From an uncultured Planctomycetaceae bacterium (GTDB lineage: Bacteria > Planctomycetota > Planctomycetia > Planctomycetales > Planctomycetaceae): a stretch of DNA of 13,288 nt. Position 1 is the first letter of the stretch. Every line of letters begins with the position of its first letter. The DNA lies in assembly GCA_903921605.1 (NCBI GenBank), contig CAIXQV010000373.1:1-13288 (forward strand), written 5' to 3'. The notes under the pieces are model-generated. The model saw only the letters and a list, made by a program, of their open reading frames with translations, was not told the DNA's origin and made no database searches. The position numbers and the translations under genes were made by a program. Shown here one piece after another: positions 1 through 13,288 of the stretch.

Positions 1-104
1 AACTCACGAATCGAAGCCGCGACAACATCGACGGCTTCATCATTCAGGCGGGGATTGTGTTCGTACGGACGCAGCTGTGTGAGCTGCCATTGTTCGACCT
101 TCAT
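1..104 (-). CDS. ParB/Srx-like nuclease-domain protein, N-terminus only (3' end outside window)
   Basis: Only the first 34 codons are inside the window; the gene continues leftwards past base 1. The visible residues begin MKVEQWQLTQLRPYEHNPR and run on through an NDEAVDVVAASI stretch. This matches the start of ParB/Srx-fold domains, in which an 'L.PYE.NPR.N..AV..VA.SI' block precedes the nucleotide-binding core. In phages and integrative elements this domain often stands alone or is fused to a DNA methyltransferase, and it is not evidence for chromosome partitioning. The ATG at 104-102 is preceded by a strong ribosome binding site, AAGGAAAGG, about eight bases upstream, so the start is well supported. 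The gene follows the HNH gene on the same strand after a leader of about 105 bases. Whether a methyltransferase domain follows cannot be seen. Confidence 0.72.
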   Translation of the reverse strand, partial: MKVEQWQLTQLRPYEHNPRLNDEAVDVVAASIRE

Positions 105-210
105 GGGACGACCTTTCCTTGAGACAAAGAAGCGGAAAGGGTCGGTCGGTGGTTGGATTTTGGGTTGGGTAAGTTGGTTGAGGTCGCGCCTGTTTCAGGG
201 CAACGGGAAT

Positions 211-1056
211 TTAGTCCCAGAGCGTTCTCTGTTGCCCCTGAATACTAACAGGTTTTTGGGGGTGTTGGTGAGATGCAATGCGACGACACATGAGAATGAA
301 TTCCTGCTGGCTCATAGTATGCTTTGCCCGATTCACTGTCTTGGTCACGAACTGTGCATTTGATGCTGAAAAATCACCGCCTTCAGAAACCGGTACGATA
401 TGGTCCAACGCCAAATCTTCCGGGGAGAGAGAAACTCCAGAGAGAGCACACCGATATCCTTGTCGCTTCAAGATCTCTCTTGCTTCCGGCATCGAAAGGA
501 CAAATGAGGCTTTCGTCCTTTGATTCTTTCGTCTCTTGCCCGATTCTCTTCGATGCATCAGCCACGCAATGTATTTGAAAAGATCTATTCGATTCGGAAC
601 GGATCCAACGCAATTCGCTTCTCTTCGATGGCGATACAGCTGCCGTTCATTGATTACCTGGCCGATTTGAGTCGAGTTCAAAAGCTGCAGGAGATCCCCG
701 AGGCGAAGGTTTCTGTAATGCTCTAGTCCAGAGCACGTGTTCGCCACGCTTGAACACTCAGCATCAACCGATATTCCCATGTGTTCTTCCTTCGACTTCG
801 CTCCGTTTTGCCCTTTGCGGATGCAATCGATTTGATGATCGCTGACCTCCAATCCATTGACTTCTCGGATGAACCTTGCCGGTGAGATGTCCGCAACCTC
901 GGTTTTTGTTTCGCACGAATACACCAGGCGGTCAAACAGCAAGCGATTGCGCGATGCCATCGCTTGCGAAGTGTCTGCCGCATCCGGTGCTTCATGTTTG
1001 AGGCTTTGATCGCCCGCTCCATGGCTACATCCCATTGCGTATTGTTGATCATTCAT
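211..1056 (-). CDS. HNH endonuclease domain protein
   Basis: The 281-residue protein has a C-terminal HNH nuclease module at about residues 195-255: a single Cys in YRCALSG (C203), then LALDHIVPVSEGG (D218, H219), then N233 and a closing NRAKHTMSQQEF block (N242, K245). This is the usual 'C..sG...lDHivP.s.GG....N.q.....N..K....ef' HNH pattern, which makes metal-dependent nicks or breaks in DNA. The zinc-knuckle cysteines of some HNH families are missing, so this is a minimal HNH. The N-terminal 180 residues match no family I recognise; a basic stretch, HRRESGKRRKNQRTK, just before the nuclease may bind DNA. The start ATG has TAGGAG about six bases upstream. HNH genes in phages commonly sit near terminase genes and assist packaging; no terminase is visible here, so that role is only a possibility. 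Confidence 0.85.
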   Translation of the reverse strand: MNDQQYAMGCSHGAGDQSLKHEAPDAADTSQAMASRNRLLFDRLVYSCETKTEVADISPARFIREVNGLEVSDHQIDCIRKGQNGAKSKEEHMGISVDAECSSVANTCSGLEHYRNLRLGDLLQLLNSTQIGQVINERQLYRHRREANCVGSVPNRIDLFKYIAWLMHRRESGKRRKNQRTKASFVLSMPEAREILKRQGYRCALSGVSLSPEDLALDHIVPVSEGGDFSASNAQFVTKTVNRAKHTMSQQEFILMCRRIASHQHPQKPVSIQGQQRTLWD

Positions 1057-1173
1057 GAAGACTCCTAATCTCAGGACCGACGAAAGAAACTGTCCCTGCC
1101 CTTGCGACTGTTCCCAATGGCCTCAGGAAACGATTTGGCCCGGGAAGTACCTAATCGCCTGACCACCTTCATC

Positions 1174-1313
1174 GGACCAACTTGCGGACCGGACCCAACG
1201 GACCCGCTGGCTGAGATCATCGGACCGGACCGGACCCTATATATAGGGTCCGGTCCGGTCCGATGATCGCTATGGGACCAACTCAATTTGGTCCGATCGG
1301 GTCCGCTTGGTCC
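1174..1313. repeat. Field of 14 GGWCC pentamers (iteron-like), candidate replication origin
   Basis: Fourteen GGACC or GGTCC pentamers occur in 140 bases, starting at 1174, 1186, 1191, 1200, 1222, 1227, 1232, 1247, 1252, 1257, 1275, 1290, 1300 and 1309. Left of the central palindrome all are GGACC; to the right GGTCC dominates. The sub-site GGACCAA-6 bp-TTGGTCC (1275-1294) is a further inverted repeat. The field covers the last ten or so codons of the primase-helicase gene and the space before the HNH gene. Dense short repeats beside a replication initiator gene are the classical layout of iteron origins, so an origin is my preferred reading. A regulatory or terminator role remains possible. 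Confidence 0.6.
1215..1268. repeat. Perfect 54-bp palindrome with TATATATA centre
   Basis: Every base from 1215 to 1241 pairs with its partner from 1268 back to 1242, giving two 27-bp arms with no spacer. The arms contain three tandem GGACC units followed by CC, and the centre (1238-1245) is TATATATA. As DNA it could extrude as a cruciform that melts easily at its AT centre. As RNA it would make a very stable hairpin between the primase-helicase and HNH genes. No T-run follows it in the direction of transcription, so it is not a standard intrinsic terminator. Confidence 0.9.
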
Positions 1314-3214
1314 GATGCTCGCGGACGCACACCTTCAAACGTTCTTCCTCCTTTAATCACTGAACAGGACTCCACGCGTCCGTCCTGCATGAGCTCCTCC
1401 AGTACCTCTTCAAATCGATCCGAATTCAGTCGTGCCAGCAAACGCAGCGCTTTCCGTGTTTCGCCTTCCGGTCGACTGCAGATTGCCTTCCAGACCACCT
1501 CCTGATGCCGACTCGACTGCGCCATGCGACGAACCTCCTGACGCTGTTCCTGCCGTTCCACAACCTGCATTTCCCGATCTTCTATCACCTGCTGACCGCT
1601 CATGACAGAGACCTCCCAGCGACGCTGCTGACCGCCCTGACGTGTCCCTTCCTCGATATCAATGCCCCAGAGACCGCTGTGGCCTGCACTACCACCAGAG
1701 GAAAGCCAGAGTTCATGGTGACCTCCGTTGGCAGGGTCGTAGCGTGAGCGGCGATTGATCAGCAGCCATTGACGGACGAACTCCTGGAAGCCAGCCCACG
1801 CGATGTTGTCGAGCTCCGCGGGCTCATACGGATCGGCAATTCCTTTCCTCAGGTGATGGCACAACAGCGGCGTACAGCCAGTTTCCTGTGATAGCTTTGC
1901 CAGGGAATCCAGCAGTGCACCGACAATGAACAGATTGCTCGCGCCGTCACCGACGTTCATCATCATCAGGTAGGTCGGATCGAGAATCAGCACCTCCAGT
2001 TCATGTTCCATCACAAATGTTCGCAGGGCCTCCGTATGCTCAACCACACCCAGCTGAGGCACTTCGAAGGCCCAGATCACATTTCCGCACTGCGACAGCC
2101 GCTGCTTTTGCGAGGCGGCGATCCGACGGGCTGTTTCCTGAATTGTTGCAGCACCAGATTCACCCGACATCACGCCGACTCGCACGGCGGCTGTGACCGG
2201 AAAGTGACTCAGAAACAGTGATCCCTGACCCAGTGAAATGGCCAGATCGATGCTGATGCTTGTCTTGAGTGTTTTCTTCGGCCCGGCGATCACTCCTGGC
2301 TGACCGCGGACCAGCAGTCCGTCGATCAGGTATTCCAGATTGTATTCGCCGGAATCGAGTTGTGCGGAAGTGATTCCGGGGAATCGCTTTTTTGTCTCCT
2401 CGCGTTTCTTCGCCTGCATCTGGCCCCAGTGGTCTTCGATCAGGGCCACGGAAATCTGGTCCGGCTGGTAACGGGCCAGGCTGCCGGCGATGCCGCGGAC
2501 TTCCTGGATTGGAAGTGGCGGTACACAGCGATCGGTGTTCACGCGTTCGAGTGCCGCGAGGATTTCCGGTTCGGACATCCCAACACGCCGCATGGTACCG
2601 GCCAGTCGTGCCAGCGCAGCGTTTCGCTGACCAGAGGGAATCTGGTTCGCACGACTCGCAATCGTCTCGCGTTCGGTTGGACCGTTCGTCGTGCGCTGCG
2701 CATCGGTCTCTTCGAGAGCAGCCTGCAACCACGCTGGAGGTTCCGGCAGCTTGTCGCGAGACTCGTCCAGCTCCAGACCGTCGACCCACTGGTATGCTCC
2801 TTCCGCGCGGCGCGACGGCGGCAGCACGACATAGCCGCCATCGCCCCGAGTATCCACGCTGGGCGCAAGAGCACTTTGCGTATTCCGCCACGATTGCTCC
2901 GCTGGCTGTCGATAAAAACGGTGGCTGCCGCCACGAGGAGTAATCGCCATCGGACCGATGGTCAGTTCCATGGCTCGGTCAGGCCCGGGCCATGGATTCG
3001 ATGCACCGTCGATGTCCAAAACAAGCAGACCGGCCGTTGGCATCCCGATATTGGCGAGAGGAATCTCGATCCACCAGCGTTCGATCCGTGCCGGGTCGGT
3101 CGTGGCGTCCTTGAACCCATGGGCCGTCGCTGGCCGGTTGGTGCCGGGTTCGCAGGGAAAGACCGGGTAGCCAAGTTCTGCGTAACGCAGAGCGGCGGAA
3201 AGCAGGTCACTCAC
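1283..3214 (-). CDS. Primase-polymerase / RepA-like helicase fusion (replication protein)
   Basis: This 643-residue protein looks like the element's replication initiator. Residues 5-165 form a bifunctional primase/polymerase (Prim-Pol) domain: the metal-binding pair LVLDIDG (D67, D69), GGSHRFY (H98) and DTRGDGGYVVLPPS (121-134). Residues 193-250 fit the primase C-terminal helical domain (SGQRNAALARLAGTMRR onward). Residues 290-525 are a RepA/RecA-like ATPase with Walker A GPKKTLKTS (311-319), Walker B EVLILDP (407-413) and a CHHLRK motif (452-457), typical of hexameric RepA-type helicases. A basic, Glu/Gln-rich linker and a probable winged helix (571-630) finish it. The start is GTG at 3214: an in-frame TGA lies 12 bases upstream, leaving no earlier option. 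GAGG and GGAGG lie upstream as ribosome sites. The gene's 3' end runs into the GGWCC repeat field, so the last residues (DQADPIGPN) are encoded by repeat DNA. Confidence 0.88.
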   Translation of the reverse strand: MSDLLSAALRYAELGYPVFPCEPGTNRPATAHGFKDATTDPARIERWWIEIPLANIGMPTAGLLVLDIDGASNPWPGPDRAMELTIGPMAITPRGGSHRFYRQPAEQSWRNTQSALAPSVDTRGDGGYVVLPPSRRAEGAYQWVDGLELDESRDKLPEPPAWLQAALEETDAQRTTNGPTERETIASRANQIPSGQRNAALARLAGTMRRVGMSEPEILAALERVNTDRCVPPLPIQEVRGIAGSLARYQPDQISVALIEDHWGQMQAKKREETKKRFPGITSAQLDSGEYNLEYLIDGLLVRGQPGVIAGPKKTLKTSISIDLAISLGQGSLFLSHFPVTAAVRVGVMSGESGAATIQETARRIAASQKQRLSQCGNVIWAFEVPQLGVVEHTEALRTFVMEHELEVLILDPTYLMMMNVGDGASNLFIVGALLDSLAKLSQETGCTPLLCHHLRKGIADPYEPAELDNIAWAGFQEFVRQWLLINRRSRYDPANGGHHELWLSSGGSAGHSGLWGIDIEEGTRQGGQQRRWEVSVMSGQQVIEDREMQVVERQEQRQEVRRMAQSSRHQEVVWKAICSRPEGETRKALRLLARLNSDRFEEVLEELMQDGRVESCSVIKGGRTFEGVRPRASDQADPIGPN

Positions 3215-3314
3215 GTTGGCACCTCGTCATCCTCCGCCGGCGCTACATCGATCGATCGAGAATCTGAAGAAGAATCCTGCTCTGACAGGGAGCGGGACGC
3301 ATAAAAGCCACAGA

Positions 3315-3665
3315 TCAGGCGCGCCAGAGTTCATGACGAATGGAAACGTGAGCGGCTGGTCTCGCCGTCAGGTCGATGGCAGTGCCATCACGGTGAGAGG
3401 CGAAGGTATAGAAAAACGCGTGCCCCTGTTCGCACCAGAATTCCAGCACGATCTGAGAACCGAGGTAATCTTCGCTGCGATTTGTCGGCACCACGCGCGT
3501 CGTTTCCCGCGTAACCCGGGTTTTGGTCTGTCCCTGCTCAACGATGACTTCTGCAGGATGGACATTGCGGCAGGCACAGATCGGACAGCAAAGGGAGTCA
3601 TCCGGTCCGACTGTCGCCAGCACAAATCGGACTGGAATACCGGGAGATTTTGCAGTGGTCTTCAT
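3315..3665 (-). CDS. Small Cys-rich hypothetical protein, possible zinc binding
   Basis: I do not recognise the family by name. The 116-residue product carries a CCPICAC cluster (C26, C27, C30, C32) and later FWCEQGHAFFYTFASHRDGT (C78, H82). A CxxC followed about 45 residues later by C-x3-H would make a single zinc site, and the 'W/F-C-E-x-G-H' block recurs in small phage and planctomycete proteins that I recall only as uncharacterised. No signal peptide or membrane segment is seen. I chose the ATG at 3665 because GAAAGG lies about six bases before it. The alternative ATG at 3707 is five bases after the helicase stop, would add 14 poorly protein-like residues and has no ribosome site. Position between the helicase and primase-helicase genes suggests an accessory replication role, which is inference. 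Confidence 0.68.
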   Translation of the reverse strand: MKTTAKSPGIPVRFVLATVGPDDSLCCPICACRNVHPAEVIVEQGQTKTRVTRETTRVVPTNRSEDYLGSQIVLEFWCEQGHAFFYTFASHRDGTAIDLTARPAAHVSIRHELWRA

Positions 3666-3712
3666 GGAACGCCTTTCAAACGGAGGAGGACAGGAGACAT
3701 CAAGCATCTGTT

Positions 3713-5374
3713 TCAGAACGGAACGTCGTCTTCGGAAAACGGGGACGCGACGGCAGCCGCGTCGGGAGACTCCGGCATGTCACCGAGGTCATACTTCACA
3801 ATGCGATCGAATCGCTCGCCCGCCACACTGCGGATAGTGATCGCGTGTGTGGCTCGCAGCGATCCTGCATTGGCCAGCGCCACTGCCTGCTCAGCGGAAT
3901 CGGGAACGGGATCCGAGGACCTCTGCTGCCACCACATTTCGGCTTTCTGGCGTGCAAATCCGGTATGCTCAAAGCAGATGAATTCTGACTGCCAGAGATT
4001 GAGCCCCAGCTGATAATCAACCCGCATGCTTTTGGGCGCATCAGGAGCAGCGTCTTTCTTACGATGCACGCGAAAGAACAGATCCATCACTTCATGCGTG
4101 TCTTCCGATGCCTGGCCTGAAAGAATGCCGGCCTGCGTAGCCGTGGCTTCGTGCTTTTGTCGATCGGACGGCGGAAACACGTAACCGCACTGCGGGCAGC
4201 AGGCATAGCCGCAGGCGATCACAGCCTGACAGTTCGGACATTCCTTTGCCGGAGCGTCGCCGCTGCTGGGAGGCTGTTTGGTGAGACGAATGGCATCGAC
4301 CGGGCCATGCCGCAGAATGTTGCCGCCAAAGTCGAGGATCAGGCAGTTCGGCTTTTCCGGAGCCAGACGAAAACCGCGACCCACGATCTGAATGTAGAGT
4401 CCAGGTGACATGGTCGGACGCAGCAGGACGACACAATCCGTCTGCGGCGCATCGAAGCCTTCGGTGAGGACACTGACATTGACCAGAAATTTCAGCTCCC
4501 CCGCGCAATAGCTCATGAGGAGACGGCGGCGTTCGGCGGCGGTCGTTTCGCCCGTGACCATTTCCACTTTCGCGCCGTGGACGAGTCGCAGTTTGTCAGT
4601 TACGTGCTGTCCGTGCTGAACTCCGCTGGCAAAGATCAGCACGGACCGGCGATCCTGCGTGAGCTCAACGATTTCCGAGCAGGCGGTTTCCACCAGCATG
4701 GCGTTATCCATCAGCGATTCGACTTCGGCAGCGACGAATTCACCGCTGCGAAGCTGCAGGCCGCTGGTGTCGATTTTGACACGGCCAGCTTTGGAGATCA
4801 GCGGACTCAGATAACCGGCCACGATCAGTTCCCGCACGCCGACTTCGTAACAGACGTGATTGAGCAGATGGTCGGGCGCACAGATCAGTCCGGTCTTCAG
4901 TCGATAGGGTGTGGCTGTGAACCCGACAATCCGTTGCAGGGGATTGATGCGTTTGGTCTCGCTCAAAAAACTCCGGTACATGCCTTCATCTTCAGGATGA
5001 ATCAGATGACACTCGTCGATCAGGATCAGATCCCACGGATCAAAGTCGGAGGCTTTCTTCCAGATCGACTGAATGCCGGCAAAGATCACGGGCAGATGGC
5101 GATCGCGGCGACTGAGACCGGCTGAGTACAGACCGATCTGCAGAGCCGGATTGAGCTGAATCAGCTTATCAGCGTTCTGCTCCAGCAGTTCCTTGCGATG
5201 GGCCAGAACGAGCACGCGTCCCTGCCATTGCAGCGTCGTATCGGCAGCGATTTGTGCGATGACCCAGCTCTTGCCACCGCCGGTCGGCAGCACAACACAG
5301 GGATTGTCGTCCCGAGTGCGAAGATGCTCATAGACTGCGAAAACAGCAGCTTGCTGGTACGGTCTCAGTTGCAT
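3713..5374 (-). CDS. SF2 DNA helicase (DECH box) with C-terminal zinc ribbon
   Basis: The 553-residue protein is an ATP-dependent superfamily 2 helicase of the RecQ/RecG/UvrB-like 'ResIII plus Helicase_C' layout often found in phage replication modules. All core motifs are present: LRPYQ (Q-like, 3-7), Walker A PTGGGKS (30-36), DECH (120-123), FTATPYR (152-158), LTEGFDAP (303-310) and QIVGRGFR (329-336). A four-Cys zinc ribbon follows (CPNC at 379-382, CPQC at 393-396). The remaining 150 residues are unassigned, possibly a DNA-contacting domain, and end in an acidic FSEDDVPF tail like the tails of single-strand-binding proteins. I start at ATG 5374 (MQLRPYQQ). In-frame GTG codons at 5386 and 5392 overlap or abut the stop of the upstream gene and are alternatives, the first as a GTGA overlap. 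The tight spacing implies translational coupling with the zinc-ribbon gene. Confidence 0.88.
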   Translation of the reverse strand: MQLRPYQQAAVFAVYEHLRTRDDNPCVVLPTGGGKSWVIAQIAADTTLQWQGRVLVLAHRKELLEQNADKLIQLNPALQIGLYSAGLSRRDRHLPVIFAGIQSIWKKASDFDPWDLILIDECHLIHPEDEGMYRSFLSETKRINPLQRIVGFTATPYRLKTGLICAPDHLLNHVCYEVGVRELIVAGYLSPLISKAGRVKIDTSGLQLRSGEFVAAEVESLMDNAMLVETACSEIVELTQDRRSVLIFASGVQHGQHVTDKLRLVHGAKVEMVTGETTAAERRRLLMSYCAGELKFLVNVSVLTEGFDAPQTDCVVLLRPTMSPGLYIQIVGRGFRLAPEKPNCLILDFGGNILRHGPVDAIRLTKQPPSSGDAPAKECPNCQAVIACGYACCPQCGYVFPPSDRQKHEATATQAGILSGQASEDTHEVMDLFFRVHRKKDAAPDAPKSMRVDYQLGLNLWQSEFICFEHTGFARQKAEMWWQQRSSDPVPDSAEQAVALANAGSLRATHAITIRSVAGERFDRIVKYDLGDMPESPDAAAVASPFSEDDVPF

Positions 5375-5382
5375 GATCGACT

Positions 5383-5622
5383 TCACTCCCACCCCAGCAT
5401 TTCAAATCCTTCAGCCAGCCGATCTTCGTAAGAAGACTCACCATCCGGATCGTCGTCGCATGGGCCGGTCTCCTCATCGCACTCGTCCGGATGCACGTAC
5501 ATCAGAACCGACTGCTCTTTCACACTTTCGGAACGACAGTAAAAACACGTTTGGTATCCGTGCGGCAACGTCGCACGGCAGTCGTTACAGACCGTCGCGC
5601 GCACATATCGTTTGCGTCGCAT
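5383..5622 (-). CDS. Small zinc-ribbon protein with acidic tail
   Basis: The 79-residue product begins with a basic MRRKRYVRAT stretch, then a four-Cys zinc ribbon, CNDC (12-15) and CFYC (26-29), with a 10-residue knuckle. The C-terminal half is strongly acidic (PDECDEETGPCDDDPDGE) and ends EGFEMLGWE. The function is unknown. A basic-zinc-acidic layout would suit a nucleic-acid-binding adaptor or a DNA-mimic-like tail, but that is speculation. It starts three bases after the resolvase gene, with GGAGG and AGGAA just upstream of the ATG, and its stop lies eight bases before the helicase start or overlaps the alternative GTG start. It therefore belongs to the same operon and may work with the helicase, which has its own zinc ribbon. 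Confidence 0.72.
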   Translation of the reverse strand: MRRKRYVRATVCNDCRATLPHGYQTCFYCRSESVKEQSVLMYVHPDECDEETGPCDDDPDGESSYEDRLAEGFEMLGWE

Positions 5623-5625
5623 TTC

Positions 5626-5979
5626 CTAGCCTCCATGCGGCACGATTCGAACAATGACTTTTCCACCGTCGATCGGCGATCGCTTCCACGTATCAAGATG
5701 CACGATCTGACTGTCGTCGTGGTACGCACCACCATGTGCAAGGGCATCCAGAAGAGCCTTCTGCGAGTTATCCACGTCGCGGCGGCGACGATCAGGCGGG
5801 TAAAGGTCGATGAAAACTTCCAGTGCGCCGGACAGCGGTCGCACCCCGCGGGCCGCGAGGATCGAGCAAACCGCTATGCGGAATGCCCGACCCCCGCGAC
5901 TGATGAGCGTCCTTGCTCCCACGTGCCGCCAGTAGTGATTGGCGGACGGCGGAAACGGCAGTTCGAGTTCCATAGTCAT
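5626..5979 (-). CDS. rusA: RusA-family Holliday junction resolvase
   Basis: The 117-residue length and motif order fit RusA, a dimeric nuclease that cuts four-way DNA junctions in phage recombination. The opening LPFPPSANHYWRH is the usual RusA N-terminus. The catalytic block is PDRRRRDVDNSQKALLDAL, with acidic residues D68 and D70, N71, K74 and D78, followed by HDDSQI (D88, D89). It closes with VIVRI. All expected acidic residues are present, so it should be active. I use the ATG at 5979 because AGGGA stands five bases before it. GTG at 6000 would add seven untypical residues, and the ATG at 5973 is a further choice. An imperfect hairpin (6005-6033) lies in its leader, between it and the DUF669 gene. 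Confidence 0.85.
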   Translation of the reverse strand: MTMELELPFPPSANHYWRHVGARTLISRGGRAFRIAVCSILAARGVRPLSGALEVFIDLYPPDRRRRDVDNSQKALLDALAHGGAYHDDSQIVHLDTWKRSPIDGGKVIVRIVPHGG

Positions 5980-6004
5980 CACGTCCCTGCCACGACTCAC
6001 TGAA

Positions 6005-6033
6005 CACGGTGCAACGCATGACGCTGCGCCGTG
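6005..6033. repeat. Imperfect hairpin in the leader of the resolvase gene
   Basis: Two 12-base arms (6005-6016 and 6022-6033, CACGGTGCAACG and CGCTGCGCCGTG) match at 10 of 12 positions as an inverted repeat around a five-base loop. In the leftward transcript one mismatch becomes a G-U pair. It lies 25 bases before the resolvase start codon in an 84-base intergenic space, the widest within the central part of this operon. It could slow or partly stop transcription or alter translation of the resolvase. No T-run follows. Confidence 0.4.
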
Positions 6034-6063
6034 CTGATCCCTGTCACACCGAGATTTGCCTCG

Positions 6064-6516
6064 TTATCTTCGCCATGGCGGCGTCGCTGTGGCCGCCTGC
6101 TGAGGCTGCACCGTAGTCACTTCGCGTTTCGCGTAGCCTTTGATCTCGTTCGTCAGGTCACCGGTATCCGGACGTTTGCGGCAACGAACGTTGATGACCA
6201 GTGGCAGGTTGTGGAGTTCCACTGAGTCCTGCGGAGTCAGCACGCCGACAGCTCGGCAGACGGCAGACAACTCTGCCTTCGCAATCTGAACGGCCGTCTG
6301 GTTCGGGTTGTCCAGATTGAGTCGTGCCCAAAGGAATCGGCCCTTGTACTCGCCTTCCAGTATCTGAAACGTCAACTGCAGATAACTGCCGAACCCCGAC
6401 TTGGTCGGTTTCGTTTCTGAGTCAGTGATCATGGCCGCATATTTTCCGGCCGGGATCGCTTCAAACTCCGTTGTGGGCTCAACGTGATTCGCGTTGAAGT
6501 TGTGCAGATCAGCCAT
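6064..6516 (-). CDS. DUF669-family phage ssDNA-binding/annealing-associated protein
   Basis: The 150-residue protein has the features of DUF669: an opening MADLHNFNANHVEP with a proline-rich 'p.g.Y.a.i..se.k.tk.g' block (FEAIPAGKYAAMITDSETKP), then GSYLQLTFQILEGEYKGRFLW, then ARLNLDNPN and a late GYAKRE. This family is found in many tailed phages beside Sak4-type recombinases, where it is thought to act as a single-strand DNA-binding protein. That is exactly the arrangement here, with the Sak4-like gene only three bases upstream. The C-terminal ATATPPWRR tail is short and flexible; the acidic tail of bacterial SSB is absent. The ATG at 6516 has GGGAG about nine bases upstream, inside the end of the Sak4 gene, so translation of the two is probably coupled. 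Confidence 0.82.
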   Translation of the reverse strand: MADLHNFNANHVEPTTEFEAIPAGKYAAMITDSETKPTKSGFGSYLQLTFQILEGEYKGRFLWARLNLDNPNQTAVQIAKAELSAVCRAVGVLTPQDSVELHNLPLVINVRCRKRPDTGDLTNEIKGYAKREVTTVQPQQAATATPPWRR

Positions 6517-6519
6517 GAG

Positions 6520-7329
6520 TCAGTTCTCCCTGGAATGGAATGGAATGGTGGAAACGGAATCGGTCACATTGCTGCTGTCGAGGATCCCACTGACGATCGC
6601 CTCCCAGGACAGTGGGATTTCGGGTCTGAGTCGGTAACGGTTCTTGGCGACGCACGAGGGCCCGCCAGTTGTACGCAGGATGCGTTCTCCGCCCGCCGCC
6701 CCGATCGGCGCGGCGATTGCCCGCTGACGGCCAAACCCGGCGTCCTCAGACCGCGTGGTGAAGCGTTTCGTGGCAAAGAGCACCGCGTCACACCATTCGG
6801 TGATCAGCGCGGCCGCATGTTTGTGCAGGCGAGGCGAGTAACGGTCGTAAGCCGGGGCCTCGGGGTCTTCGAATTTCTCGACCTTTGAGTGCGCAATCAG
6901 GAACACCATCATGTGTCGCTCCTGATGGAGCACCGTAAGTCGATCGAGCAGCTTGCGCCAGAAGTCCAGGGCCAGTGTGTAGCCTTTGCCGTAGCCACCG
7001 CCGACTTTTTCAATCGTCGTCGCAGACTCCCGTTTGCACACCGCGTCCCAGATCAGGCGTTCGAGCCAGTCGAGGGAATCGATCACGACTGTTTCAAAGT
7101 CATGTGATTCCGTCGCAAGTTCCTGCAGAGCAGTCATCACGTCATCGAACGAACGAGCCAGCGGAAATTTGTGGCAGTCAATTTCTCCCAGTCCGTCTTC
7201 CGTCTGCACGAAAATCGGATGCGGTGCCCCTGACGCCAGCGAGCTCTTCCCGACGCCTTCCGTTCCGTACGTCATGATTCGAGGTGGCATGTGAGAGCGG
7301 CCACTTTGAATTTGTTGCATGAGTCCCAT
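6520..7329 (-). CDS. Sak4-type RecA-like AAA ATPase (phage single-strand annealing/recombination)
   Basis: The 269-residue protein is a short RecA-fold ATPase of the phage nucleotide-binding AAA_24/Sak4 type. Walker A is GTEGVGKS (22-29), Walker B VVIDSLDWLE (81-90, D84) and a likely sensor is FLIAHSKVEKFEDPEAP (143-159). No long RecA C-terminal domain is present, as expected for Sak4. Proteins of this class promote ATP-dependent annealing or strand exchange in phage recombination, usually together with a neighbouring single-strand-binding protein; DUF669 follows three bases later. GTG at 7332, ATG at 7329 and ATG at 7320 are possible starts. I use 7329 because AAAGGAAAG sits about nine bases before it. 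A role in DNA repair or replication restart of the element fits the exonuclease and RusA neighbours. Confidence 0.86.
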   Translation of the reverse strand: MGLMQQIQSGRSHMPPRIMTYGTEGVGKSSLASGAPHPIFVQTEDGLGEIDCHKFPLARSFDDVMTALQELATESHDFETVVIDSLDWLERLIWDAVCKRESATTIEKVGGGYGKGYTLALDFWRKLLDRLTVLHQERHMMVFLIAHSKVEKFEDPEAPAYDRYSPRLHKHAAALITEWCDAVLFATKRFTTRSEDAGFGRQRAIAAPIGAAGGERILRTTGGPSCVAKNRYRLRPEIPLSWEAIVSGILDSSNVTDSVSTIPFHSREN

Positions 7330-7375
7330 CACAGTCTTTCCTTTCGTTAGGTGAAATCGGTAAACCTCGGCCTGG

Positions 7376-7409
7376 GCTGAGCCGCGTCGATCCGTCGCTG
7401 CGGCTCAGC
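7376..7409. repeat. Hairpin with 10-bp perfect stem
   Basis: GCTGAGCCGC (7376-7385) and GCGGCTCAGC (7400-7409) are exact inverted copies around a 14-base loop, in the roughly 200-base space between the exonuclease and Sak4 genes. It lies within the leftward transcript, about 50 bases before the Sak4 start. It could attenuate the operon or mark a processing site. No T-run follows in the leftward direction. Confidence 0.5.
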
Positions 7410-7432
7410 ACCAGTGCCGGTTGAATAAAGAT

Positions 7433-7520
7433 GACGAGCGGGAGGGCGCAGGGAGTCCCGTCAAACAGTGCCGCCGATCCCTGGCAGAACATCTGTGACA
7501 CGCCATCCCGCCCGCTCGTC
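7433..7520. repeat. Long-range inverted repeat downstream of the exonuclease gene
   Basis: GACGAGCGGG (7433-7442) has an exact inverted copy, CCCGCTCGTC (7511-7520), with 68 bases between. Allowing one mismatch, the arms extend to 14 bases. The right arm starts seven bases downstream of the exonuclease stop codon in the direction of transcription. Together with the 7376-7409 hairpin it makes this gap unusually structured. A partial terminator or RNA stability element is possible. Confidence 0.4.
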
Positions 7521-7526
7521 GGGGCA

Positions 7527-8333
7527 TCAGATGAAGTCAAACAGTCGGCGTTCCTCGTAACCGGTGGGCCAGTCCTCTTCAGCCAGGCAGGCCCGAAGTC
7601 GGTCAATCGCCTCTTCGTTCTCACGTTGAGCGGCGGTGAGTGTTTCCGGAGCCATCAGCCAGACTCCGCAGCGATAGGGTTCCTTCTTCTCGACCGCGAT
7701 CAGATGCACGGGCATGCATCGCCCCGTGGCCTGCATCAGCACAGCACGATAGAACGCCAGCTGGTGGGCGTAGCCGTATCGGCGAGCATCGGCTTCGAAC
7801 CAGGTCAGATCATCGCACGTCTTCAGGTCCACAATTCCGTGGTGAGGGTCATACCAGTCCATGCGGATCTGACAGGGCATGCCACAATAGTCATCGCGGA
7901 CAACGCCTTCGGCTTCTCCGTATTCCAGCAGCGTCATCGCCACTGGGTGCGTCTTAACAGCTTCGTTCATGCGAGCCACGACATCCCACTGAGCATCAGT
8001 CAGGATGTCTTTGCCAACGGCTTCTGCCCACTCGGCCCATGCTTTGGTACCGGATCCAAATGGCTGACCTGTGCGAGGATTGACCGGACCTCCGACGGCA
8101 TACTCGGCTTCAAAGCGTTCCAGTCCCTCCAGAATCAAGGTGTGAGCCGCACGTCCGATCATGTACGCCGGACGATCTTCCTGTGTGACGTTTCCCATCT
8201 TCTTTCGACGGTAAAGCAGCGGGCATTTTCGGAAGTCCGCCAGCTGGTGGCTCGACAGGTACTCACTGCGTTTGGAGTGATAAAGGTCGGCGGGCTCGTG
8301 GGTGATGACGTTTGAAGCATTTGCGACAACCAT
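7527..8333 (-). CDS. PD-(D/E)XK exonuclease (RecE/Cas4-like, PDDEXK_1/DUF3799 type)
   Basis: The 268-residue protein has the ordered motifs of phage recombination exonucleases: GRAAHTLILEG (H64), an acidic residue near E142, MDWYDPHHGIVDLKT with D159 and the core D169-L-K171, and YGYAHQLAFYRAVL (Q191, Y195, the 'QxxxY' motif). The N-terminal SHQLADFRKCPLLYRRKK block is typical of RecB/Cas4-like folds, though no four-Cys iron-sulphur cluster is evident. It would resect double-stranded ends to give the single strands used by Sak4 and DUF669 downstream. I choose the ATG at 8333, which has AAGGAA about seven bases upstream. A start at 8402 is open but would run across the likely promoter/leader and has an unconvincing extension. 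It is the first gene of the leftward block. Confidence 0.82.
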   Translation of the reverse strand: MVVANASNVITHEPADLYHSKRSEYLSSHQLADFRKCPLLYRRKKMGNVTQEDRPAYMIGRAAHTLILEGLERFEAEYAVGGPVNPRTGQPFGSGTKAWAEWAEAVGKDILTDAQWDVVARMNEAVKTHPVAMTLLEYGEAEGVVRDDYCGMPCQIRMDWYDPHHGIVDLKTCDDLTWFEADARRYGYAHQLAFYRAVLMQATGRCMPVHLIAVEKKEPYRCGVWLMAPETLTAAQRENEEAIDRLRACLAEEDWPTGYEERRLFDFI

Positions 8334-8440
8334 TGGGCATTTCCTTAAGACCGCTTTCCTGGCAACTGATGCTGCAACCATGTGCAATCCGGCATCAAAC
8401 AACTCTCGGCGGCGACAATGAGTTATTTGCCGCGGGCATC

Positions 8441-8462
8441 AAATGTTCGGCAGTGAACATTT
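8441..8462. repeat. Operator-like inverted repeat AAATGTTC-N6-GAACATTT
   Basis: Eight-base arms (8441-8448 and 8455-8462) are exact inverted copies around a six-base spacer, GGCAGT. A 22-bp dyad in a divergent promoter region is the size expected for a dimeric helix-turn-helix regulator. The GTTC/GAAC halves recall LexA-type sites but are in the opposite order to the GAAC-N4-GTTC box, so I do not call it a LexA site. Confidence 0.55.
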
Positions 8463-8467
8463 CCGGT

Positions 8468-8539
8468 CATGTGACCAGTCATGTGACTGAATCTGTCACC
8501 GGCGACCGGTCATTTCCGGCGCATGTGACCAGTCACATG
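8468..8539. repeat. CATGTGAC repeat cluster (operator-like)
   Basis: CATGTGAC occurs at 8468-8475, 8480-8487 and 8522-8529, with one inverted copy GTCACATG at 8532-8539. The last two form the dyad CATGTGACCAGTCACATG (8-bp arms, 2-bp centre). A longer unit, CATTTCCGG followed by CATGTGACCAGTCA, is present twice about 53 bases apart (from roughly 8458 and 8511), so a segment of nearly 30 bases has been duplicated. This arrangement suggests a multi-site binding region for an element-encoded regulator in front of the sigma-like gene. Confidence 0.6.
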
Positions 8540-8644
8540 AACACATTCTGCTCCACAGACCTTGTCACCGGATCTCGGAAAGACTTCCGCATCGCGCCGA
8601 GGCTGTCCCGGCGAATCAAAAGGTTGTTTCAGGAGCAGATTTGG

Positions 8645-9202
8645 ATGCTTAAGAATTGCTATGCCGACATCATCGAACCATGGAAAGTAGAACTGATCAT
8701 TCGTCGCGCAAGACGCTGGGGAATCAACAGCTCCGATCTGGAGGATGTGCAACAGGAAATCGTGCTGTCACTGCTGGATTTTGTCTTCGACCCGCAGCAT
8801 GCGAATGGAGCGTCTGAGGTGACTGCTGTGACAGCAGTGATCGACCGGAGGCTTGCCATGATCCGTCGTCGGGAGACACGGCACCTGCGGCGCGAAGAAC
8901 GGTTCCGAGCGCTCGCCGTGGTGGTTGATGAAGTTCTTCGGGTCACACCAAATGCCGTTCTCGATGAAGACGATCGGAATCTGACAATTGACCTCAGAAC
9001 CGTCATCGACGAATTGTCACCACGGGCACGTCGTGTCTGTGAATATCTGTCCGAAGGACGCACTCTTAACGAGATCGCCGGGTTGCTGGGTATCGACTGG
9101 CGCGCTGTCCGCAGAGAAGTCGATGCCATCCGTCTGCATCTTCAGCAGTCAGGCTTGGGAGCCATGACTGGCGACTTTCAGCAGCCGAGGATTCTGGCAT
9201 GA
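8645..9202 (+). CDS. Small sigma-70-like transcription regulator
   Basis: From the ATG at 8645 the product has 185 residues, the size of a two-domain ECF-type sigma factor. Residues 6-50 resemble region 2, including DLEDVQQEIVLSLLDF (31-46), close to the 'D.ED..Qe.fl.l' core that binds RNA polymerase. Residues 115-168 resemble region 4: IDELSPRARRVCEYLSEGRTL followed by NEIAGLLGIDWRAVRREVDAI, a helix-turn-helix. The linker is rich in Arg and Glu. I choose 8645 because AGGAG lies nine bases before it. The open frame extends back to 8312, and ATG 8537 is an alternative without a ribosome site and inside the repeat cluster. Its last four bases overlap the next gene. It may direct transcription of the element's own genes; it could also be only a sigma-like DNA-binding regulator. 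Confidence 0.7.
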   Translation: MLKNCYADIIEPWKVELIIRRARRWGINSSDLEDVQQEIVLSLLDFVFDPQHANGASEVTAVTAVIDRRLAMIRRRETRHLRREERFRALAVVVDEVLRVTPNAVLDEDDRNLTIDLRTVIDELSPRARRVCEYLSEGRTLNEIAGLLGIDWRAVRREVDAIRLHLQQSGLGAMTGDFQQPRILA

Positions 9203-9447
9203 AGACGAAGAGATCCACTCGACAGACAAACAACCAAACCGCAACTGCGGTACTGGTTGATGCCAAAACAGCCTCCGAGTTTTGCGGCAAGTCACTGAGG
9301 ACATGGCGATCATGGGACTCCGCCGGCCTGATCCCGGATCCGGTGCGAATTGGACGTTCCACACTTTGGCGCATTGATGAATTGCGTGCCTGGGTCGCAG
9401 CAGGTTGCCCACGTCGAAAAGACTGGGAATTCATTGACCGAAACTGA
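9199..9447 (+). CDS. HTH_17 / excisionase-type DNA-binding protein
   Basis: The 82-residue product contains a MerR-like winged helix (HTH_17, as in AlpA and Xis proteins): LVDAKTASEFCGKSLRTWRS (helix-turn-helix), then WDSAGLIPDPVRIGRSTLWR and IDELRAWVAAGCP. The 'tlwr..eL..W..aG.P' ending is characteristic. Such proteins bend DNA at attachment sites to favour excision, or regulate promoters. The ATG overlaps the stop of the sigma-like gene as ATGA, indicating translational coupling, and the integrase follows after 86 bases. That order fits a recombination directionality factor paired with the integrase, although a purely transcriptional role cannot be excluded. Confidence 0.82.
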   Translation: MKTKRSTRQTNNQTATAVLVDAKTASEFCGKSLRTWRSWDSAGLIPDPVRIGRSTLWRIDELRAWVAAGCPRRKDWEFIDRN

Positions 9448-9533
9448 TCGAAATGAACTTGATGTTACCCCGGAATTGAACACTGTGACGAACGTTGTTG
9501 TGGTTGAATCGCGTCAGACAATCAGGAGCATAC

Positions 9534-10706
9534 ATGGCCAGTTTGTATAGAAAGCCGGTGATCGTCACCGATCCGAAAACCGGACAGCGTGTCAAATCAA
9601 AATCAAAGAAATGGTGGGGACGATACAAGGATGAGAACGGTATCGAATGCCGCGTTCCGCTGGCCGTCGACAAGACCGCCGCTCAGACGATGTTGAATGA
9701 ACTCGTCCGGAAGACAGAACGCCGTGCGGCCGGATTGATCGATCGCTTTGACGAGCACCGGCAACGCCCAATTGACGTTCACTTGGAAGAATTTCGGAAA
9801 CACCTGCAGGCGCGACGAGTCGGCGAAGCTCAGGTCAAGCTGGTGGGGTATCGGGTCGAACGCATCATTGAAGCCTGCCGGGTCCGTATCCTCACGGACC
9901 TCTCTGCCAGCCGCGTCCAGAAATTCCTTGCGGATCTCAGGGCTGACGGATTGAGTATTCAGACCAGCAACCACTATCTGCGCGCCATCAAGCAGTTCAG
10001 TCGCTGGCTCGTCCGCGATCGTCGAGCTGGTGAGGATCCTTTGGCCTATATCTCCATGCTGAATGTCGCCACTGATCGTCGGCACGATCGCCGGCCTCTG
10101 ACCGAGACTGAATTCACCGCCTTGATCGCAGCGACAAAAGCAGGAAAGACCATAGTTCGGCTCAAAGGACCGGACCGTGCGATGCTCTACATCGTCGCCG
10201 CCTATACGGGGCTCCGGGCCAGCGAGCTGGCGAGCCTGACGCCGGAAAGTTTCAGGCTCGACGAAACCCCGCCCACGGTCACAGTGCTGGCCGGCTATTC
10301 CAAACACCGACGGCAGGACGTATTGCCCTTGCATCCGAGCCTTGTCGAATCACTACGCCCTTGGCTGGGCTTGAGAAAGCCCGCCACGCCTGTATGGCCC
10401 GGTGCGTGGGCTCGGGCAAAGCAGGCAGGCAAGACACTCCAGCGGGACCTGAAGGCCGCCGACATTCCTTACATCGACAAACAGGGTCGCTACGCCGACT
10501 TCCACGCCCTCCGGCACACCTTCATCACCAACATGATGAAGTCCGGCATCAACCCGAAAACGGCACAGAGCCTCGCTCGACACTCCACGATTGATCTGAC
10601 CATGAATGTCTACACAAGCCTGACCGTAAACGACCAGGCAGCTGCCATCGCTGCGCTGCCCGGGCTAAAGACCCCGAACGCGACAACCGGTCGCGAGTCA
10701 GCCTGA
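9534..10706 (+). CDS. int: Tyrosine recombinase / integrase
   Basis: The 390-residue protein has an N-terminal arm-type region, a SAM-like core-binding domain (about 75-165) and a catalytic domain with the full active site: R228 (YTGLRASEL), K257 (GYSKHRRQ), H324 and R327 (FHALRHTF), H350 (LARHSTIDLTMNVYT) and nucleophile Y360. It should cut and join DNA at the attachment sites to insert and remove the element. The ATG at 9534 is preceded by AGGAG at a normal distance; the in-frame codon at 9495 would add 13 residues and lacks a ribosome site. The family resembles the planctomycete and phage integrases that are often preceded by a HTH_17 gene, as here. It is the last gene before a long gene-poor stretch, so one attachment site probably lies close to its 3' end. 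Confidence 0.93.
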   Translation: MASLYRKPVIVTDPKTGQRVKSKSKKWWGRYKDENGIECRVPLAVDKTAAQTMLNELVRKTERRAAGLIDRFDEHRQRPIDVHLEEFRKHLQARRVGEAQVKLVGYRVERIIEACRVRILTDLSASRVQKFLADLRADGLSIQTSNHYLRAIKQFSRWLVRDRRAGEDPLAYISMLNVATDRRHDRRPLTETEFTALIAATKAGKTIVRLKGPDRAMLYIVAAYTGLRASELASLTPESFRLDETPPTVTVLAGYSKHRRQDVLPLHPSLVESLRPWLGLRKPATPVWPGAWARAKQAGKTLQRDLKAADIPYIDKQGRYADFHALRHTFITNMMKSGINPKTAQSLARHSTIDLTMNVYTSLTVNDQAAAIAALPGLKTPNATTGRESA

Positions 10707-12072
10707 AGGGGCGACTGGTTAATTGACGCCTATGCCTTTCCAAAAGTGCCCATGTATCGGAGTGGCGGACCGAATTGTCAACCGCTCCCACAAAGCCAAC
10801 TCAGGATACGCCCTCTTGTGCTATTGAGTACGGTGTCCTTGTGGTCTCAGGTCACGATCACTTCCGCGTTCATCGCATTTTCATCCGTATTCGGATTGAC
10901 TGCGAGACTTGATCGAACACCCCGACGTGTCGAATCAAATCGATGTCGCGCTGGCGTGTCGGACCATAAGCAGTGAAGTGAACTTCGTTTCGGCCTCCAG
11001 TCGTGACCGACGCTGCCGTAGCGGGCGCCGGCAGATTTTTGAAAAATCGTCAGGAAAGCTGAAAAACGACGGTCTTTGCTGCGTTGTAGAGAGTGAAAGG
11101 CCAGATTGAATGCGGCTACTGAGAAGTCTCTTCGAGCAGATTAGGAAAAACCAACTCGATGCCCGCGTATGAGTTCATGACGATCGACGCACAACGCGAA
11201 ACGAACGAACCAATGCCATCCATCAGACGCTTTTACTATCGACACCGCCAGACGACCATCTCTCGACTCACATTGGTCAGAGCAACGTTAGATGAAAGCG
11301 CTGGATGGCAACCGAATCCGAATGGACGGAAACTGGAGCTAAAAGATGCGGCCCTTCGATCCACTCATGGGATGGTCGAGGCACGGTATTTTCTGTGAAG
11401 TTTGCGATTGAGAAGCTCTTGAAGACAGGAGTTTTGTTGCGGTAATTCAGAGTTCTTTGAGGCAAATTCCTACGGGAGATTTCCTGACATGCACTCCAGT
11501 GCGATTGATCATCTGATGGTCACGGCTCCCACGCTGGCTTCGGGCATTCAGTATGTGGAGGAAAGGCGATGAGGAATGAGTGCAGCATGATCGAATTGTC
11601 GAATCGCGGCTGCTGATTCCGTTGTGATTCACTTCGTGATCTTTGTGTCCTCCGTGGCCCATCAGGCGATGGGAAGGCGAAGCCAAGCGTGCCATGCGGT
11701 GACAAAACCCGGATAACTTGCACACCCGGGCAACGCAAGTGACGTTGGATGGTCAGCGTGATAACGGTCCATCAATGTTGCAAGTGACGTCCGATGGTGA
11801 AAACGACAATCGTTCCGCAGAGGAAATGCCTTTTTGAATTCATCGAAACGACTGTGTGCAAGCACCCATGAGTCGCAGACATGGGCGACCTAGTTTCACG
11901 CCCGCCCAAGAATTCCTATGCTTCCGCGCAATTCAATAACGAGGGCTGCAAAACTACCGCGAATTGCTATTCTGATGGCGGGATGATCGTCTCGCCGTTC
12001 ATCCCGTCAGTCGATAATCGTCAGGCAACGAATTTTGCATATCTTGCAGGAAGACAGGACAAGAAGAACCGT
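10707..12072. other. Gene-poor junction region (1.37 kb), probable element/chromosome boundary
   Basis: I find no convincing gene here. Several open frames of 60-100 codons exist on both strands, but they lack good ribosome sites, overlap each other and show no family motifs. No tRNA, rRNA or complete insertion sequence is visible. A weak hairpin lies at about 10755-10790, where GCGG pairs with CCGC and flanking bases, and could be part of an attachment core. Further right are a GTGTCCTCCGTGG-type degenerate segment (11632-11657) and a 19-base direct repeat pair (11735-11798), suggesting decayed repeat-derived DNA. The attachment-site direct repeat cannot be identified because the other end of the element is outside the window. 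Confidence 0.55.
11735..11798. repeat. Pair of 19-bp near-identical direct repeats
   Basis: GCAAGTGACGTTGGATGGT (11735-11753) recurs as GCAAGTGACGTCCGATGGT (11780-11798), differing at two adjacent bases, with 45 bases from start to start. They lie in gene-free DNA between the integrase and the kinase. They may be remnants of a dispersed repeat of the host genome. Confidence 0.55.
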
Positions 12073-13288
12073 ATGTCGCAACAGGAATGGTTTGTTCAGC
12101 GAGGCGAGCAGGTCCAGGGGCCAATAAGCTTTAATGAACTGTGCCAACTCGCAATAAGCGGCAAGTTGATCTCCTCCGACCCCGTGCGGACATCGGAAAA
12201 TTCTGATTGGTGTCGAGCGGACACCATCGACGGCCTGTTTTCGACCGTTGATTCATCGGGCTCTTCATCAGATTCGTCGTCAGCCTTTTCATCGGGGTAC
12301 GACATCGAAGATATGCTCGACAGATTGATGGAACTCTACGAAGACAACCCGGAGAATGTGCCCTCGCCGCAAAGCCTTTGGCCGGATTGTCCAGCGGACA
12401 TTCTGGAGGACGTACAGGCCAGACTAAGCCCAAACCTTGAATGGCACTGGTTTCTTTCGCCTTCCGATAATGGAGATGACGACCAAATGTCTGCCCCAGA
12501 ACTTTCGGTACTCAAAGAGGGTTATCGTCCAACGTCATCGTCGTATGTGCTCTCAAAGCTGCTTGGCAAAGGAGGCTGCGGAACTGTCTGGAAGGCGGAA
12601 AATCCTAAAACGGGAGAAACCGCCGCTTTTAAGTTTTCTGCACAGATGAACGCATGTGGCAAAACTCTGGATAATGAATTCAGCAAGATTAAGGAGCTTA
12701 ATCATCCCGGCATCGTCAGATTGCTGGGGGAGCATCCTTTTGCCCAGATACCGTGCCTGCAGTACGAATACGTGAACGGAATAGACCTTAGCGATTTCCT
12801 TGTGAAAGAATTTAAGTTCCTCCGGCCTCAATCCGTTGTTGGTGAACGTTGTCCCCTCGATTTTAAACACGCGGCTGCGGTCATCCTCAAGCTGGCTGAA
12901 ATCATGGCGTACGTCCATGACCGGCCAAAGCCAGTCGTCCACCGAGACCTCAAGCCTGGCAACATTCTTGTATCCAACCACCTCGACATGGCTGTGCTTG
13001 CAGCGCTGGGGATTGAACAGGACCTGCGACTGGCAACTCTGAAAGTCATGGATTTCGGATTAGCCGGAAGTTTTCGTCCCGGCGGGCAAAATTCGTTCGA
13101 AAGCCTGAGTCTGGGAGTGGACCACCAGGGGTGGGGCACCGAGGCTTATATGTCGCCACAACAGAGATTGCATGCGCCGGCGCATCCCTCCGATGACATT
13201 TTTGCGATCGGAGTGATGTGGTATGAACTGCTCATGGGCCGCATTGGAGCGGGATTACCCAGCGGAATACGGGGGCATCAGGAGGTCA
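12073..13288 (+). CDS. GYF_2-domain Ser/Thr protein kinase, N-terminal part (3' end outside window)
   Basis: The frame is open from ATG 12073 to the window edge, giving 405 visible residues. Residues 5-57 are a GYF_2-type domain (WFVQRGEQVQGPISFNEL onward), a fold common in planctomycete membrane and kinase proteins. A Ser/Asp-rich linker follows (60-75). The Hanks-type kinase domain starts near residue 158: glycine loop LGKGGCGTVWKAE (164-176), lysine K187 (AAFKF), catalytic HRDLKPGNIL (290-299), DFG at 327-329 and GTEAYMSPQQ in place of the APE region. All catalytic residues are present, so it should be an active Ser/Thr kinase. The ribosome site is weak (AAGAAG). No transmembrane segment is seen yet; downstream sensor domains are typical of the family and may lie beyond the edge. 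Its more AT-rich codon use and distance from the integrase suggest it is host chromosomal DNA. Confidence 0.87.
   Translation, partial: MSQQEWFVQRGEQVQGPISFNELCQLAISGKLISSDPVRTSENSDWCRADTIDGLFSTVDSSGSSSDSSSAFSSGYDIEDMLDRLMELYEDNPENVPSPQSLWPDCPADILEDVQARLSPNLEWHWFLSPSDNGDDDQMSAPELSVLKEGYRPTSSSYVLSKLLGKGGCGTVWKAENPKTGETAAFKFSAQMNACGKTLDNEFSKIKELNHPGIVRLLGEHPFAQIPCLQYEYVNGIDLSDFLVKEFKFLRPQSVVGERCPLDFKHAAAVILKLAEIMAYVHDRPKPVVHRDLKPGNILVSNHLDMAVLAALGIEQDLRLATLKVMDFGLAGSFRPGGQNSFESLSLGVDHQGWGTEAYMSPQQRLHAPAHPSDDIFAIGVMWYELLMGRIGAGLPSGIRGHQEV

Follow-up and report, generated by a model that had tools for sequence, protein, structure and literature searches.

The DNA analyzed here is a stretch of 13,288 nucleotides from an uncultured Planctomycetaceae bacterium (contig CAIXQV010000373.1, positions 1 to 13,288; hereafter the window), which is part of a prophage. 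Behind the gene of a primase-helicase it carries an array of GGWCC repeats built around a perfect palindrome (1174-1313). Judged from sequence comparison, this segment is probably the replication origin of the prophage, its repeats serving as iterons that are read by the adjacent initiator, in a layout resembling that of phage-inducible chromosomal islands (PICIs) with a palindrome added. As in iteron-type origins, short repeated sites are clustered beside the initiator gene. The place and layout of the array are conserved among relatives, palindromes and repeats occur there in excess, and the type of repeat is coupled to the winged helix of the initiator. Binding, melting, priming and replication at the array are proposed from these comparisons and by analogy with known replicons.

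The palindrome and the repeat array

The palindrome (1215-1268) consists of 27-nt arms that are 100% complementary and follow each other without a spacer; it is centred on TATATATA and holds three GGACC units per arm. An earlier prediction, made from the letters of the sequence, had described this palindrome inside 14 GGWCC repeats, and both parts of the description hold. Fourteen units with the core CGGACC lie within 1174-1313 and 36 in the whole window (array and palindrome are listed without a strand). The same is true of the orientation that had been noticed: left of the centre 7/7 units read GGACC and right of it 6/7 read GGTCC, the sole exception on the right being a GGACC unit at 1275. 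The array had also been placed beside the 3' end of the gene, which it adjoins, but three of its units (1290, 1300 and 1309) fall inside the gene's last codons, the stop codon being 1283-1285.

The total of GGWCC units in the window is ordinary (36 versus a shuffle mean of 29.6, standard deviation 4.9, with at least 36 in 26 of 200 shuffles), and it is their clustering alone that is unusual. CGGACC occurs eight times in the 400 nt past the last aligned domain of the protein, a frequency reached by any 6-mer in 0/100 dinucleotide shuffles. The palindrome scores 27, and a score of 10 was reached by 0/768 shuffles of 96 homologous regions. Among 104 stretches of IMG/VR that contain GGACCGGACCGGACC, a palindrome with arms of at least 13 nt within a GGWCC cluster was found in two, L008 and L043, both beside the initiator gene (homologous loci or stretches are numbered L, genomes G). 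L008 (contig IMGVR_UViG_3300042543_000797) is 97.2% identical to the window over 9,475 nt and fully identical across window positions 1177-1354, which makes it unlikely that palindrome and array are an assembly fault.

An RNA copy of the palindrome would fold, and the genes on its two sides share one strand, so that it could be taken for a transcription terminator or an RNA hairpin between the primase gene and the next one. This explanation is very unlikely: no terminator-like site was found in 1000-1500, 0/30 hand-picked palindromes had five T at a distance of up to about 45 nt from the centre, whichever strand was considered, an Rfam search gave no match in the arrays of five sources, and the repeats would be left unexplained.

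Conservation beside the initiator gene

Homologues were gathered by searching genomes (sets of 392, 297 and 396, overlapping) and from further stretches, giving 111 non-identical gene ends; homologous proteins at E<=1e-30 number 951. In the close group, sixteen ends have a winged helix and enough flank; they include the window and two near pairs (L107/L116 and L175/L203), and their layout was scored by reading. L105 is a near copy of the window and L261 a further copy of L111 in which some bases are masked. The prediction had staked itself on the palindrome recurring beside close homologues, and palindrome and repeats stand beside the gene in 16/16 of these ends, the palindromes being AT-centred. 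It had further expected the same GGWCC field in related elements. A field is indeed kept at the same place, but the sequence of its repeats differs between elements, together with the winged helix. The repeats read CASTGGGAC in L107, L109/L110, L112, L115 and L116, GGTGGTCC/GGTGCTCC in L108, L118 and L119, GGTGGGAC in L120, L124 and L130, and GCCGCCCC in L111; GGACC repeats recur in L043 and L117. In five records, copies of CASTGGGAC at the array account for 13/17, 12/13, 10/10, 3/4 and 3/3 of those in the whole record, and genome G503 holds three elements (L119, L120 and L205) with three different repeats. The layout recurs in the remote phage MW202867.1, where repA is directly followed by a palindrome centred on CCTATAGG and by TGGGACA repeats; no such repeats or palindrome were seen in MW202444.1.

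Some loci could be read in part or differ in arrangement. L114, L122 and L129 stop short of the array and L123 is broken, and in L140 no palindrome was seen. In L113, a homologue without the winged helix, no short-repeat array was recognised, though an imperfect ~60-nt repeat and an AT-rich stretch are present; it was excluded from the repeat, palindrome and coupling counts. In L125 the palindrome lies within the gene's long tail; on the same contig, near 6938 (+), a second repeat cluster and palindrome (score 13) are found behind another open reading frame (ORF).

The contigs of L008/L105, L106, L108 and L121 terminate inside the array. Such ends are to be expected if assemblies break at palindromes and repeats, and the feature would then be hidden in metagenomes. 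The ends of L008, L106, L108 and L121 would also suit a hairpin-telomere resolution site, the protelomerase target of a linear plasmid-prophage, for which telRL of N15 is the model and to which the palindrome is alike in length and symmetry. A telomere is nonetheless extremely unlikely here: these contig ends may be assembly breaks at repeats, and in relatives the palindrome is internal to MW202867.1, deposited as circular and complete, and to the 636,055-base contig G817:C5. The recombinase of the window, moreover, lies 8 kb off and matches ordinary phage integrases.

Enrichment of palindromes and repeats

Palindromes were scored at 96/111 gene ends (L261 among the 17 close rows) and compared with windows inside the gene (upstream), windows 800 nt downstream and shuffles. 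A score of at least 8 was obtained in 38/96 array regions versus 2/96 upstream, 0/84 downstream and 14/768 shuffled regions. Close rows reached at least 8 in 14/17 cases and at least 7 in 16/17; distant rows reached at least 8 in 24/79, versus 1/79 upstream, 0/67 downstream and 9/632 shuffles. The repeat-enrichment test skipped 11/90 rows and thus covered 79 regions, one of which is L105. Repeats were enriched at p<=0.05 in 54/79 and at p<=0.01 in 45/79, and were significant in 15/16 close-group ends. At the 3' ends of 104 other ORFs from 13 loci, a palindrome was found in 4, repeats in 4 and both in 2; the primase 3' ends of those loci have a palindrome in 8/13 and repeats in 11/13.

The array is also ordered around its centre. 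The commonest 6-mer outside the palindrome flips its orientation across the centre in 28/37 scorable elements (50 listed; p=0.0026), the test being limited to elements whose palindrome is AT-centred and whose 6-mer occurs at least four times, with L105, L261, L116, L203 and L231 left out by hand. In 30 hand-picked palindromes the own arms pair at 234/300 positions (shuffled mean 104, maximum 139); as the sample was chosen for being palindromes, this result shows turnover with kept symmetry and not enrichment.

Slippage can create palindromes as well as short repeats, and a selfish or accidental cluster, resembling repetitive extragenic palindromes and having no role, could have arisen in this way. 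The controls make this highly improbable, as other gene ends rarely show a palindrome or repeats. The cluster also holds a fixed place beside one gene across wide divergence, its repeats turning over and its layout being kept.

The initiator protein

The adjacent gene (1283-3214, - strand) encodes a protein of 643 amino acids with a Prim-Pol domain (PF09250, E 9e-37), PriCT-1, a RecA-like helicase-type domain (AAA_25) and a C-terminal winged helix; Toprim families are not listed for it. Three features of the pRN1 type, an archaeo-eukaryotic-type primase, a C-terminal winged helix and a stem-loop 3' of the gene, are all present. The AlphaFold2 model has a mean predicted local distance difference test score (pLDDT) of 90 overall and of 93-97 at residues 561-630, and the winged-helix domain modelled alone has a mean of 86.6; the C-terminus is thus confidently predicted to be a winged helix (residues about 562-631, 1322-1531, - strand), the putative iteron reader. 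The arrangement of the domains is uncertain, because the predicted template modelling score is 0.56. The nearest folds of the winged helix include MarR-, PadR- and ROK-type domains, and with a best Foldseek E of 0.008 these matches reflect a common fold and not kinship. The helicase domain resembles Twinkle, DnaB, T7 gp4 and RepA of RSF1010 (1olo_B, target TM 0.72, root-mean-square deviation 4.1 over 287 columns, rank 30), and other RecA-fold proteins (RAD51, KaiC) match it too. A sequence search of the PDB gave no match at E<=0.1, and phage and plasmid collections gave no match spanning 80% of the protein.

Coupling of the repeats to the winged helix

The repeat type follows the C-terminal winged helix and not the helicase core. 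This was seen in a partial Mantel test that started from 95/111 rows (L105 and L261 were taken out by hand; 14 rows were too short or had no winged helix) and, after removal of four near-duplicates, comprised 91 elements. Corrected for the core, repeat similarity was related to the winged helix in the close set (N=13, r=-0.67, p=0.001) and in all elements (N=91, r=-0.088, p=0.004). The core, given the winged helix, was not significant in the close, full or distant set (p=0.32, 0.18 and 0.68). An earlier run with 78 elements had given p=0.001 and 0.057. Tested apart, recognition helix and wing were both significant in the close set and neither in the distant one. The original prediction had regarded the pentamers as binding sites of the initiator, which sequence comparison now supports: repeats that change together with the winged helix argue for initiator sites more strongly than a constant GGWCC field.

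A natural swap is seen in L111 and L115, whose cores are 98% identical, with 26% identity of the winged helix and a repeat similarity of 0.03. Their DNA agrees at 90.9% as far as L111 position 3394, some 65 nt short of the codons for the winged helix, and is unlike across the winged helix and the array until a 44-nt block at 3906-3949 (81.8%). A separate variable region follows beside the putative origin: L111 3950-5786 is again unlike L115 and must vary on its own account, because it also differs from L261, the 98%-identical second copy of L111.

Residue rules and a distant element provide hints of how the repeats might be read. The LNxD[NR] helix motif occurs in 4/6 elements with at least six GGACC versus 1/85 others. 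CACY-type repeats accompany 12/18 winged helices with a Q.Y wing versus 12/73 without it, or 9/11 versus 15/80 under a stricter wing pattern; as these rules were picked with the data in view, among related elements, their p-values are descriptive only. In L190, which is distant and has 10 GGACC, the winged helix is nearest to those of L043 (44%) and the window (42%), L256 being nearly equal (41.5%), and the core is slightly nearer to others (L252, 49%) than to L043 (45%).

Coupling indicates recognition and not function, and could therefore also be expected of an operator, copy-control or partition site, where the winged helix would bind the repeats for operon regulation or segregation and replication would start elsewhere. 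The PDB winged helices nearest to that of the initiator are indeed mostly transcription regulators. Such a site is unlikely, however, given that the array lies behind the gene and not ahead of it, that no sigma-70-type promoter-like site was found in 1000-1500 (other promoter types not covered), and that an AT-centred palindrome would be superfluous for a plain operator.

Several points weigh against the origin reading. Gene end and array adjoin and can be transferred together in a single recombination, so that linkage may account for some of the coupling; among the distant elements (N=78) the coupling is weak (r=-0.065, p=0.013). A palindrome scoring at least 8 is missing in 55/79 distant rows, repeat enrichment is absent in 25/79 regions, and 9/37 elements do not reverse their 6-mer. 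By reading, no array was found beside the gene in L252, L257, L259, L268 and L273, nor in L258 and L265, where the flank is merely about 90-115 nt. Elements that share a genome do not always differ: the two similar ones in G437 (L175/L203) have the same repeats, and so do the two in G817 (L261 and L262, the latter identical to L111). The GC skew, proposed as a check by the original prediction, has no unique minimum at the array in the window. In record G967 (54,785 bases) it has a small swing with its global minimum at 24.6 kb, and only a local dip at 41.6 kb adjoins the array (41.04-41.30 kb); the skew was judged uninformative.

A model of initiation and its implications

On the origin reading, the winged helix of the PrimPol-helicase would bind the GGACC iterons, as their co-variation suggests. 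Since most iterons on either side point at the palindrome, the helicase would be loaded as two assemblies facing each other. These helicases would open the TATA centre, where the earlier prediction had put the start of melting or cruciform extrusion, and the palindrome, whose symmetry is kept while its sequence changes, would let each single strand form a hairpin. The PrimPol domain would then prime the exposed strands and the host polymerase would follow, probably in both directions, in analogy to pRN1 and RSF1010.

A wider proposal, for which there seems to be as much reason to accept as to doubt, is that a single design of origin is common to planctomycete prophages. The iteron-palindrome array and the C-terminal domain of the initiator would be swapped as a unit, with the rest of the protein constant. 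Many orthogonal replicons would result, along with a recognition table (for example, GGACC read by LNxD[NR] helices and CACY-type repeats by Q.Y wings), and the palindrome would be a hairpin priming site on both strands. If true, this recognition cassette would amount to a natural table of protein-DNA recognition. In this initiator family the origin could be predicted from the DNA sequence, and as many as about 90 natural pairs of initiator and array (91 in the coupling test) would be available for studying the reading of DNA by a winged helix and the ways in which replicons avoid incompatibility. A literature search, for which subscription journals were mostly outside reach, turned up no paper on the replication origin of planctomycete phages.

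Gene content, host and neighbouring features

The host is most likely a planctomycete, because the relatives from the genome collection are planctomycete records in 10/10 cases, including one titled Thermogutta, a member of this phylum. The module of the initiator includes a DEAD/ResIII-type phage helicase (3713-5392, -), and the - strand further encodes a DUF669/single-strand-binding-type protein (6064-6516) and a Sak4-like ATPase (AAA_24; 6520-7332). On the + strand, a sigma-factor-like protein (8312-9202; phrog_1740, E 3e-10) lies near the tyrosine integrase of the prophage (9495-10706). The gene listing places an excisionase-type helix-turn-helix protein between the two. The similarity of L008 to the window ends at 10651, within the 3' end of the integrase gene and possibly near the attachment site, and a GYF_2/kinase gene past the integrase may be host DNA.

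On the far side of the array lies a gene of the HNH/endonuclease VII-like type (211-1056, -). Ahead of it, beyond the array, a conserved block was noticed (TAGGTACTTCCC..GGGAACAG..ACAGTTT; 1085-1149, -). In 10/14 loci scanned, such a block is present on the primase strand beyond the array, starting with TAGGTACT and mostly continuing with CCC..GGAACAG..AGTTTGT (besides the window, L107 10126, L110 9267, L112 7997, L115 10204, L117 10144, L118 4931, L119 3661, L120 3707 and L124 10216). The next gene is of the HNH type in the window and of the ParB/N6-N4-methylase type in L107, and the block is a candidate promoter, RNA or packaging site, which the sigma-like protein could serve. Type II hammerhead ribozymes (Rfam RF02276) were found in L120 (7047-7111, -) and L111 (8992-9053, -).

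Comparison with known replication systems

The iterons of Staphylococcus aureus pathogenicity islands (SaPIs) differ between elements and match the Rep of their own element. In the PICI/SaPI pri-rep-ori arrangement, the origin lies immediately 3' of a (sometimes fused) primase-initiator gene, and two iteron sets flank an AT-rich region that is a possible melting site (PMC6092414). The window shares the position 3' of the initiator gene and the two iteron sets around an AT-rich region. It differs in its Prim-Pol-type primase and in an AT region that forms the middle of an iteron-containing palindrome. The carrier may differ as well: the relative L107 has its own gpA-type terminase domain, whether or not this holds for the window, which spans part of its element. 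The relatives from the genome collection are, as said above, planctomycetes.

ORF904 of pRN1 is a PrimPol-helicase with a C-terminal winged helix and a downstream stem-loop that is required for replication; such a stem-loop origin was also suggested for Bordetella phage BIP-1, and pRN1 has an SF3 helicase and, according to the authors, no iteron structure (PMC4234260). The window agrees with pRN1 in the PrimPol-helicase with a winged helix and in the palindrome or stem-loop 3' of the gene, whereas its helicase is RecA-like (AAA_25) and iterons are its main feature. In RSF1010, three proteins (RepA, RepB' and RepC), among them the helicase RepA, provide an iteron binder, a helicase and a primase for a replicon with iterons and the ssiA/ssiB stem-loops (PMC4234260). 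The helicase domain described here matches RepA (1olo/1g8y), but one 643-residue protein stands in place of three polypeptides, and either strand of the palindrome can form the same hairpin. The alpha protein of phage P4, which has an ori, is at once a primase (of the Toprim type), a helicase and, through a winged helix, the binder of repeats at the origin (PMC4234260). The initiator of the window would combine the same three functions with a Prim-Pol instead of a Toprim primase; the origin-binding domain of P4 alpha is not among the matches listed for its winged helix, which excludes nothing. A layout described as confined to PICIs would be extended to prophages of another phylum and linked with the origins of stem-loop type that have been suggested for PrimPol replicases.
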